This document shows positions 2,579-61,053 of a stretch of 64,000 bases of DNA, in pieces. Position numbers and translations under genes: made by a program. The DNA comes from Microbacterium sp. LWO14-1.2 (lineage in GTDB: Bacteria; Actinomycetota; Actinomycetes; Actinomycetales; Microbacteriaceae): NCBI RefSeq assembly GCF_038397715.1, contig NZ_CP151633.1, positions 2,046,001 through 2,110,000 of the forward strand. Reading direction: 5' to 3'. The notes beneath the pieces are model-generated. The model searched no databases. It was not told where the DNA came from and saw only the letters and a list, made by a program, of their open reading frames with translations. Within the stretch, counting starts at the first letter, position 1. Each line of letters starts with the position of its first letter.

Positions 2579-2704
2579 AGCGAGGAGTCACGAGCGACGA
2601 GCGCGGCACGGCTCCCCGCACGCGAAGGCATGGCTCTGCTCACGGCGGATCCGCCCCCGGCGGATTCCCGCGTGGACCGCGAGGGGGCGACGGATGCTGG
2701 GGGC

Positions 2705-3319
2705 ATGAGCGAAGACAACCCCATCCCGCAGTTCGGGCCAGAGGCCCGCCGCGCGCTGTTCCACGAGCGGGTGCTCGTGCTCGACGGCGCTCTCGACGAC
2801 GACAACGGCACGCTGCTCATGACGCAGCTGCTGACCCTGTCGGCCGAGGACCCGACCACCGACATCGCCCTGTGGATCCACTCCCCGGGTGGTTCGGTGC
2901 CGTCCATGCTCGCGATCCGCGACCTCATGACCCTGATCCCGAACGACGTCTCGACCCTGGCGCTCGGGCTCGCCTGCAGCGCCGGCCAGTTCCTCCTCTC
3001 CGCCGGGGCGAAAGGCAAGCGCCGGGCATTGCCGCACGCCCGTATCCTCATGCATCAGGGGTCCGCGGGCATCGGCGGATCCGCAGTCGAGATCGAGACC
3101 CAGGCCGGCGACCTGCGCCACATGCGCGACACGGTGCTGGGCCTCATCGCCGACGACACGGGGCAGCCGCCCGAGCGCATCTTCGAGGACTCGCTGCACG
3201 ACCGCTGGTACACCGCACAGCAGGCGCAGGACTACGGCTTCATCGACGGCATCCTCGATTCGGTCGCCGAGATCATGCCGCGCCGGCGTGCGCGGGTCGG
3301 ACTGGGGGTCGGCTCATGA
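2705..3319 (+). CDS. clpP: ATP-dependent Clp protease proteolytic subunit, catalytically complete
   Basis: This is a 204-aa ClpP protein. The serine-protease triad is intact, with spacing identical to E. coli ClpP: Ser92 in LACSAGQF, His117 in ARILMHQ (25 residues later) and Asp166 in LHDRWYTA (49 later). The family block SAGAKGKRRALPHARI is present. ClpP forms a tetradecameric barrel that degrades proteins delivered by ClpX or ClpC. ATG 2705 is chosen because the protein then begins at the usual ClpP N-terminus; SD-like G-runs precede it. Its stop codon overlaps the next gene's start (ATGA at 3316-3319), so the two subunits are translationally coupled. No clpX or tig is nearby, so this is probably an accessory pair, not the housekeeping operon. 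Confidence 0.92.
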   Translation: MSEDNPIPQFGPEARRALFHERVLVLDGALDDDNGTLLMTQLLTLSAEDPTTDIALWIHSPGGSVPSMLAIRDLMTLIPNDVSTLALGLACSAGQFLLSAGAKGKRRALPHARILMHQGSAGIGGSAVEIETQAGDLRHMRDTVLGLIADDTGQPPERIFEDSLHDRWYTAQQAQDYGFIDGILDSVAEIMPRRRARVGLGVGS

Positions 3320-3909
3320 GCAGCTACACGATCCCGAACGTCATCGCGCAGCATCCACGGGGCGAGCGCGTCATGGACGTGTACTCGCACCTGCTCGCGG
3401 AGCGCGTGATCTACCTGGGCACCGGCATCGACGCGGGCGTCGCCAACGCGCTCATCGCGCAGCTGCTGCACCTCGACGCCGACAGCCCGGAGTCGGCCGT
3501 GCAGTTCTACGTCAACAGCGAGGGCGGCGATCCCGGGGCGGCTCTGGCGATCTACGACACCATGCAGCACATCCGTCCTGCGATCGCGACGACGTGCGTC
3601 GGCCAGGCGATCGGCCCGGCGGCGCTGCTGGTGGCGGCGGGCGCTGCGGGGCAGCGGTCCGCGCTGACGCACGCGCGCATCGTGCTGCACCAGCCGGCCG
3701 GACAGTCGCGCGGTGCGATCCCCGATCTGATCCTCGCGGCCGACGAGGTCGTACGGGTGCGCTCCGACATGGAGTCCATCCTCGCCAGGCACTCCGGGCG
3801 CACGGTCGAGGAGCTGCGCGCCGACACCGATCGCGATCGGGTGTTCACCGCATCCGCAGCGCTGGGCTACGGCCTCATCGACACCGTGCTGGGGGAGCGG
3901 ACGGCGTGA
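3316..3909 (+). CDS. ClpP paralogue with catalytic Ser replaced by Gly (ClpR-like)
   Basis: This 197-aa ClpP-fold protein has FYVNSEGGDPGAALAIYDTM, VGQAIGPAALLVAAG, THARIVLHQP and DRDRVFTASAALGYGLID. Aligned on the family, the nucleophile position is Gly100 (GQA-I-G-P in place of QAASMG). His125 and Asp174 are retained at exactly the canonical spacings (+25 and +49). The subunit should therefore fold and assemble but lack peptidase activity, like the ClpR subunits of cyanobacteria and plastids. Overlap with the active clpP by ATGA suggests matched synthesis and a mixed two-ring or heteroheptameric complex. That assembly is inference. The gene ends 6 bp from the convergent ClgR-like regulator. 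Confidence 0.88.
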   Translation: MSSYTIPNVIAQHPRGERVMDVYSHLLAERVIYLGTGIDAGVANALIAQLLHLDADSPESAVQFYVNSEGGDPGAALAIYDTMQHIRPAIATTCVGQAIGPAALLVAAGAAGQRSALTHARIVLHQPAGQSRGAIPDLILAADEVVRVRSDMESILARHSGRTVEELRADTDRDRVFTASAALGYGLIDTVLGERTA

Positions 3910-3915
3910 GCTCGC

Positions 3916-4254
3916 TCAGGCGGCGAGAACGAACGCACCGCGGGCGGCGGAGACGGCAGCGGATGCCGGGGCGGCCGCCGTCCGCAGCTCGTCTGCCACC
4001 GCGCTCGTGAGCTCGATGAGCGAGATGTCGAGCGCTCCGGCGATCGCGGCGATCATCTCGCTCGACGGCTCCTTGAGCCCGCGTTCGACTTCGGAGAGGT
4101 ACTGCGGCGAGACGCCGGCGCGCTCCGCGGTCTCGGTGAGCGTCTCTTCGCGGTCGTGGCGGCGGCGCCGCAGCTGATCGCCGAGCAGGTGGCGCCAGAG
4201 CGGCTCGGGGTCGGCGGGGCGGGGTGCGCGGGAGAACGGGACGATGTCGGCCAT
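3916..4254 (-). CDS. ClgR-like XRE-family transcriptional regulator with ssrA-like C-terminus
   Basis: This is a 112-aa protein with a helix-turn-helix at about residues 30-85. The block AERAGVSPQYLSEVERGLKE, then PSSEMIAAIAGAL, closely resembles mycobacterial/corynebacterial ClgR, the activator of clp genes, which has the same length. The C-terminus is FVLAA, ending in LAA like the ssrA degradation tag. Mycobacterial ClgR also has an alanine-rich end that makes it a Clp substrate. Convergent position 6 bp from the ClpP pair supports a regulator/protease circuit. Two palindromes lie just upstream (4270-4280 and 4292-4312). TACCGT lies 5 bp before ATG, so it may be leaderless. Regulation of the neighbouring clp genes is inferred. 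Confidence 0.8.
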   Translation of the reverse strand: MADIVPFSRAPRPADPEPLWRHLLGDQLRRRRHDREETLTETAERAGVSPQYLSEVERGLKEPSSEMIAAIAGALDISLIELTSAVADELRTAAAPASAAVSAARGAFVLAA

Positions 4255-59911: not shown

Positions 59912-59984
59912 AACGACGGAGATCGCACGTATCGAAGGATCGGATGCCGCATCCGGTCCTTCGATACGTGCGATCTCCTTCGTT
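59912..59984. repeat. family A palindromic repeat, copy 3
   Basis: 35-bp arms (59912-59946 and 59950-59984) match at 33 of 35 positions around a 3-nt centre CCG. Arm elements are GGAGATCGCACGTATCGAAG and GGATG. It lies between the rpsN terminator and the DUF559 gene. The rest of the 59837-60079 gap holds no other recognisable feature. Confidence 0.9.
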
Positions 59985-60980: not shown

Positions 60981-61053
60981 AACGCAGGAGATCACACGTA
61001 TCGAAGGACTGGATGCCGCATCCGGTCCTTCGATACGCGTGATCTCCTTCTTT
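60981..61053. repeat. family A palindromic repeat, copy 4
   Basis: 35-bp arms (60981-61015 and 61019-61053) match at 31 of 35 positions around CCG. GATCAC/GTGATC replaces the GATCGC/GCGATC of copy 3, a paired change that keeps the stem. Confidence 0.9.

Follow-up and report, generated by a model that had tools for sequence, protein, structure and literature searches.

Gene content of the locus

The window, the whole stretch of 64,000 nucleotides of Microbacterium sp. LWO14-1.2 that was analysed, carries two overlapping genes for ClpP-family proteins, A and B, together with a gene for a regulator, R, and a candidate operator (Table 1). Both ClpP-like proteins match the Pfam CLP_protease family strongly (178.9 bits for A and 198.0 bits for B) and align without gaps to the best solved ClpPs, so that Gly100 of B occupies the exact position of the nucleophile. 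The initial annotation of this DNA, which saw here one intact ClpP and one lacking its nucleophile, is borne out by the residues, Ser92/His117/Asp166 in A as opposed to Gly100/His125/Asp174 in B. Its view that nothing but the nucleophile had changed in B proved too narrow, as the oxyanion strand reads SEGG instead of SPGG and the nucleophile elbow IGP instead of AS-M/A. A sequencing error at Gly100 can be dismissed, since glycine is found there in most loci of the genus (164/183) with all four glycine codons in use. B is, by its residues, a ClpP fold without a complete Ser-His-Asp triad, which is a ClpR-like feature. The reported ATGA overlap of the two genes is present as well and suggests translational coupling of A and B rather than their equal synthesis.

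Table 1. Features of the A/B/R locus, in window coordinates
Feature	Position	Strand	Remarks
Candidate PopR operator TCTGCT-CAC-GGCGGATCCGCC-CCC-GGCGGA	2635..2664	+	70 to 41 bases ahead of A start
A, ClpP3-type catalytic subunit, 204 aa	2705..3319	+	Ser92/His117/Asp166 intact; without predicted N-terminal hairpin
A nucleophile codon, Ser92, AGC	2978..2980	+	
A His117 codon, CAT	3053-3055	+	
A Asp166 codon, GAC	3200-3202	+	
ATGA stop/start overlap A-B	3316..3319	+	4-base overlap in 159/183 genus loci
B, ClpP4-type subunit without nucleophile, 197 aa	3316..3909	+	Gly100/His125/Asp174; predicted N-terminal beta-hairpin
B codon at nucleophile position, Gly100, GGC	3613..3615	+	
B His125 codon, CAC	3688-3690	+	
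B Asp174 codon, GAT	3835-3837	+	
R, PopR/ClgR-type helix-turn-helix regulator, 112 aa	3916..4254	-	Convergent with B, separated from it by six bases
C-terminal Leu-Ala-Ala of R, candidate ssrA-like ClpP degron	3919..3927	-	LAA end in 229/253 R proteins

Single-chain AlphaFold2 models of the two subunits were described from their own secondary structure. The model of A (mean pLDDT 87.9) is without the axial N-terminal hairpin. That of B (mean pLDDT 92.0) has this hairpin, formed by strands 8-13 and 16-21, and places Gly100 between strand 90-99 and helix 101-107.

The genome also has the separate housekeeping locus that the initial annotation had proposed to look for, an ordinary clpP1P2 pair (C1:3384460-3385672; both genes 247 bits) with a gene for a 442-aa ClpX about 4.6 kb beyond it. 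A private ATPase beside A and B was ruled out, as the three matches of the genome to the ClpB_D2-small domain (ClpX and two other proteins) all lie outside the window. A phage origin was likewise rejected, all ClpPs of a phage collection (507 records) being less than 60% identical to A. A fifth ClpP-family match (C1:283992-284378, 103.7 bits) falls within a minus-strand open frame of 923 residues and is, we presume, possibly a phage-type head-maturation protease.

Also present in the window is a short inverted repeat, ACGAAGGAGATC ... GATCTCCTTCGT, about 70 bases end to end, at 2504-2574, 59913-59983 and 60982-61052, with further copies at C1:1166019-1166089 and 1972920-1972990. With at most one mismatch it has 8 matches in the window against 0.31 expected, and a longer form has 19 matches in the genome against 0 for a reversed control. 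It has the look of a palindromic element, small and dispersed, and one of the copies lies about 60 bases ahead of the candidate operator.

Occurrence and triad states of the second subunit

B is carried by 183 of 366 genomes of the genus (best match at E < 1e-50, by a hand count of the match table, after which the 183 loci were read). The best match of the remaining genomes lies mostly at 1e-42 to 1e-46, is weaker in a few incomplete genomes and is absent from three. Glycine at position 100 is well conserved among these relatives (Gly 164, Ala 7, Ser 12), the full triad of B being G-H-D in 158 of the 183 copies. For A the count is 181 copies with S-H-D and two fragmentary ones. Among all genomes examined, accessory B is fragmentary in G025 (L309, G025:C16:195000-199000), and split into two frames at G269:C1:2750638-2751218 and G297:C1:2814626-2815209, where the triad of A is intact in both cases; these copies reflect either decay or assembly errors.

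Samples outside the genus were picked by their similarity to B, so that the proportions found in them are not prevalences. Among 53 named loci, the actinobacterial share of the 80 best retained from at least 513 relatives, of which those up to 98% identical are from Microbacterium, B is G-H-D in 28, A-H-D in 20, S-H-D in 4 and truncated in 1. An intact A is present at 51 of them, the two exceptions being one fragmentary copy and one locus where no A was found. At 73 accessory loci of other genera and families, a part of the accessory-type rows found there, the triad of B is S-H-D at 24 and departs from this at 49, and A is S-H-D throughout (73/73). Database records annotate such B proteins as proteolytic subunits. 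Overall, an S-H-D triad is seen in B of 39 of 309 accessory rows, which are not independent because the named and the other loci overlap in organism, or of 46 of 316 when seven S-H-D rows from the housekeeping side are added. As a control, the ClpP1/ClpP2 ORFs of 41 housekeeping loci were read, namely our own locus and 40 more, taken from genomes that carry an accessory B, and 81 of the 82 are S-H-D. The exception is a ClpP1-type ORF of genome G049 (L403, G049:C32:18250-19700) with Leu for the catalytic His; the same genome has the accessory B with the triad A-T-E (L024).

Excluded from the 309 rows were L028-L035, L113-L139, the G025 remnant and the seven S-H-D rows just mentioned (L344, L350-L354 and L357). 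Five of these seven (L344, L350, L351, L353 and L357) group with housekeeping ClpP2 in the tree described below, and L352 and L354, which are outside the tree, share 90% identity with L350. These rows cannot simply be called housekeeping, as L350 has an operator match of 22/24 and L352-L354 have a regulator-like gene without LAA. L350-L354 (from G641, G656, G610, G457 and G473) are S-H-D pairs of a single family, f36, on the housekeeping side of the tree and are possibly an early-branching or a separate regulated pair.

The way in which the triad of B is lost differs by lineage. Serine is replaced by Ala or Gly, or by Trp, mostly together with Asp to Thr; elsewhere Asp has changed to Asn, His or Ser, also with an added change of Ser to Glu, or His has changed to Asp, and in the A-T-E copy of G049 all three residues are changed. 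A Streptomyces-like family, 14 of whose 27 genomes had such a match, keeps the serine and has Gly for His at all 14 loci (S-G-D 13, S-G-E 1). The pair was also found on four large records of a plasmid collection (L361-L364), from Streptomyces fungicidicus, Tsukamurella tyrosinosolvens, Embleya and Prescottella equi, with a helix-turn-helix regulator annotated alongside in three of them, the Embleya stretch being without annotation. B is S-G-D in S. fungicidicus and A-H-D, A-H-D and G-H-Q in the other three, in which A is intact. Carriage on such records would fit the patchy presence of the pair in the genus.

Could B nevertheless be a peptidase, by another nucleophile or water-mediated chemistry, so that the pair is an ordinary ClpP3P4 with two active rings? 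His125 and Asp174 are retained in most genus copies (the 158 of 183 with G-H-D), and 12 of the 183 keep the serine. However, none of the replacements Gly, Ala, Trp and Glu commonly serves as a nucleophile in this place, it is His or Asp that has gone in other lineages, with all three lost in one, and Ser-to-Ala is said to abolish ClpP activity in all known cases in the available part of PMC6508832. We therefore hold this explanation to be most unlikely.

Serine at position 100, to which the initial annotation had pointed as evidence against its reading, does occur. Twelve of the 183 genus loci have it, as do Gordonia, Aeromicrobium and Microbacterium halotolerans. Such homologues show that serine is ancestral or can be regained, and we do not take them to refute the inactivation of B; together with several other lineages that keep the serine, they mean that inactivity of B is not universal. 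Moreover, S-H-N copies of B may still be active, given that ClpP1 of Listeria functions in a heteromer despite its Asn (PMC9765437). One published result counts against an inactive B. ClpP1, ClpP3, ClpP4 and ClpP5 of S. cattleya, of which ClpP4 and ClpP5 are an adjacent gene pair, each shortened the half-life of RelB when combined with ClpX in E. coli; the accessible part of that paper makes no mention of a deletion of the host ClpP (PMC4989188).

History and constraint of the second subunit

A tree was built from 101 B-type sequences with the triad columns removed (left out were the short L112, L307 and L308, most outgroup rows, rows at least 86% identical with the same triad, and 8 further rows). 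The accessory B sequences form one clade that includes the Streptomyces-like ClpP4 (support 100/95) and stands beside the clade with housekeeping ClpP2. For B none of the NCBIfam models reaches its own cut-off. At least 11 unordered changes between intact and lost triads are needed, and 31 between triad states; for Ser, His and Asp the counts are 8, 6 and 6. With regain disallowed, the number of losses becomes 21. Several inner branches of the tree are weak. In the genus, the serine codons at this position (TCG or TCC) and the alanine codons (GCG or GCC) are single-base steps apart and their carriers are mingled on the tree, which allows for repeated loss and for regain alike. Separate branches (support 99-100), away from the Ala/Gly clades, carry the loss of His in the Streptomyces-like family and the losses of Asp in another family, so that B was probably inactivated more than once.

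The loss of serine might also be drift without function in a decaying gene that is held only by its operon. Some copies are indeed broken (those of G269 and G297 in two frames, that of G025 fragmentary, L112 truncated). Against this, the median dN/dS of B (0.25) is near that of A (0.24) over 5989 pairs from 178 loci, a crude Nei-Gojobori estimate at high synonymous divergence; long-diverged copies without the serine remain full length; and 21 columns are invariant over 69 diverse rows, housekeeping and outgroup sequences included. Drift in a decaying gene thus seems quite unlikely, and B appears not to be plainly decaying but to be under about the same constraint as A.

The regulator and its candidate operator

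The neighbour that had been annotated as ClgR-like is related to ClgR, but with 68.5 bits against the ClgR model (NF041677), under the curated cut-off of 170, it is a ClgR paralogue at most; its score against HTH_3 is 44.8 bits. None of 14 control genomes passes the cut-off of 170 bits either. The best ClgR candidate of the genome (C1:303952-304185, 101.7 bits), also below the cut-off, is probably the housekeeping paralogue of R.

PopR of Streptomyces is a ClgR paralogue that activates clpP3clpP4 and whose two C-terminal alanines are very likely recognised for degradation by ClpP1P2 (PMC9775585); it is reported to build up once ClpP1P2 fails (PMC9765437, PMC12607617). R was found at 253 accessory loci, a count that misses loci whose flank is too short, and terminates in LAA at 229 of them; for L310, L312 and S. 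fungicidicus this end was confirmed by eye. The PopR target of S. lividans is printed as TCTGCC-3N-GGCGAATCTGCC-3N-GGCAGA (PMC9775585), and the candidate operator has 20 of the 24 fixed bases in common with this region. When the genome was scanned with a relaxed pattern, the candidate was the sole site with 0 mismatches, and one further site had two. At up to two mismatches a reversed control pattern gave 7 matches per strand in the genome as compared to 2 for the operator pattern, so that only the exact match is telling. Across the 312 loci with at least 120 bases upstream, a few of which are not accessory (e.g. L350), the best upstream match reached at least 18/24 in 209, but in none of 1560 dinucleotide shuffles, and the -70 and -80 bins hold 172 of the 183 genus rows tested. 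The published region is matched 24/24 at 5 of the 14 Streptomyces-like loci and also on plasmid p1 of S. fungicidicus, which carries the trio of clpP3, clpP4 and a regulator that ends in LAA.

Taken together, the second clpP pair, the candidate operator, the neighbouring ClgR paralogue with its Ala-Ala end and the ClpP4 clade show, at the level of the genes, that this locus matches the actinobacterial popR-clpP3-clpP4 "backup Clp" module. The trio is widespread and corresponds to the PopR-controlled clpP3clpP4 module, and the notion that such a pair is unusual for an actinobacterium finds no support.

A proposed division of labour

The gene pair, its triad states, the operator match, the LAA end, the conservation and the constraint can all be read from the sequences. 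On this basis we consider it likely that the locus encodes a PopR-controlled backup Clp core whose second subunit is a non-catalytic, ClpR-like partner, with A cutting, B docking and gating, and the pair being induced on failure of ClpP1P2. ClpP1P2 would keep R scarce by way of its C-terminal LAA. Upon failure of ClpP1P2, R would accumulate, bind the operator ahead of A and turn on A and B together; it is the operator match and the LAA end from which we infer this induction. A and B would then assemble into a mixed double ring in which B, itself presumably inactive, docks a shared ATPase (ClpX or ClpC) by its N-terminal hairpin and ClpP2-like face and gates entry, and A provides all serine active sites.

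Several features bear on this assignment of roles. By its sequence A falls on the ClpP1 side, in that its best PDB matches after 6pbu are chains named subunit 1 (e.g. 4u0g and 2ce3), and at the docking-patch position Ec112 it has Arg in 176 of 184 genus rows, where the ClpP1 of this genome has an aromatic residue. The patch of B is partly ClpP2-like, with Gln, Thr and Ser as compared to Thr, Val and Leu in the ClpP2 of the genome. The genome's ClpP1 also has a good docking patch and the comparison of hydrophobic patches is not clear-cut, so that docking of the ATPase on B is a soft inference. The predicted hairpin in B and not in A, and the Arg in the patch of A, lend the division of labour soft support. 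A precedent exists in ClpP1P2. In S. hawaiiensis and S. lividans the triad of ClpP1 is needed and the serine of ClpP2 is not, the docking face being on ClpP2; a Ser-to-Ala mutant of S. hawaiiensis ClpP2 is fully active, ClpP1 cutting and ClpP2 docking (PMC9765437). Only the ClpP2 face is used by ClpX and ClpC1 in M. tuberculosis (PMC4416901). By analogy, the natural reading of the accessory pair is that it takes the division of labour of ClpP1P2 to its end.

Alternatively, A and/or B might be a decoy or modulator that mixes into the housekeeping ClpP1/P2 core and alters it, without forming a protease of their own. A precedent for such mixing is ClpP_ADEP of S. hawaiiensis, which breaks up the ClpP1 complexes that ADEP has activated and joins ClpP2 in an active complex (PMC12607617), and the pair has no private ATPase beside it, all three ClpB_D2-small proteins being encoded outside the window. 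Yet almost all loci with sufficient flank have A next to B, and S. lividans requires clpP1P2 or clpP3P4 to be present (PMC9765437), so that ClpP3P4 seems to work as a protease. A decoy role is therefore unlikely.

But why would a backup core contain an inactive subunit? One possible answer, which we regard as rather doubtful, is that across Actinomycetota the subunit on the ATPase side lost its catalytic site repeatedly and through different residues because selection prefers an inert docking ring and does more than tolerate it. Such a ring would not be acylated by serine-reactive Clp inhibitors of the natural-product type and its altered faces would escape ADEP, the backup that is induced on poisoning of ClpP1P2 thereby resisting the same poisons. 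This reading of the inactivation draws on two reports, and on those alone: ClpP3P4 is ADEP-insensitive (PMC12607617), and beta-lactones kill S. coelicolor without clpP3 and clpP4 (PMC9775585).

Dead ClpP subunits (ClpR) and the ClpP3P4 module were both known before. In the open literature we found no report of an inactive ClpP4 in actinobacteria, which older subscription papers may mention, and in the available parts of the backup-core papers ClpP3 and ClpP4 are treated together and the ClpP4 triad is not discussed. What appears to be new is the separate and recurrent origin of ClpP/ClpR-like pairs in actinobacteria, which apparently took place several times, as judged from the gene sequences. 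Little is known of the advantage of having multiple ClpP paralogues (PMC9753991). The backup core, which occurs in many soil bacteria, appears to combine an active with a dead subunit, the latter having seemingly decayed repeatedly and in different ways, and is thus a natural test of why such mixed machines exist. Close relatives that differ by a Ser/Ala switch (e.g. L156 and L157) are natural pairs in which cause and effect become testable. As for Streptomyces itself, a ClpP4 without the catalytic His (14/14 loci and one named species) leads to the prediction that the backup core owes its activity to ClpP3 alone.

Comparison with known systems

The closest known system is PopR-ClpP3P4 of Streptomyces. 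Gene order, the convergent LAA-ended regulator and the operator are common to the window locus, the 14 Streptomyces-like loci and S. fungicidicus. The difference lies in the triad of B, which there keeps Ser and has Gly for His, whereas here Ser is lost and His and Asp are kept. Housekeeping ClpP1P2 of Streptomyces and Mycobacterium resembles the pair in the proposed roles, the first subunit cutting and the second docking the ATPase, and the ClpP2 serine of S. hawaiiensis is reported to be dispensable in vitro; it differs in that its triads are intact (81/82 ORFs at 41 loci). Listeria ClpP1 is likewise a ClpP with a deviant triad (Asn) paired with a normal one, but it is active in the heteromer (PMC9765437), and in B it is the nucleophile itself that is gone.

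In Synechococcus ClpP3/ClpR and plastid CLPPR, an active subunit works with a ClpP-fold subunit that lacks the triad (PMC4673316, PMC6508832), as would be the case for A and B. ClpP and ClpR of the apicoplast seem to oligomerise separately (PMC6508832). As to descent, B groups with actinobacterial ClpP2/ClpP4 in a tree built without cyanobacterial ClpR. Finally, the rings of Synechococcus ClpP3/ClpR are mixed (3:4), while for ClpP1P2 of Streptomyces and M. tuberculosis a hetero double ring has been described (PMC9765437, PMC4416901).
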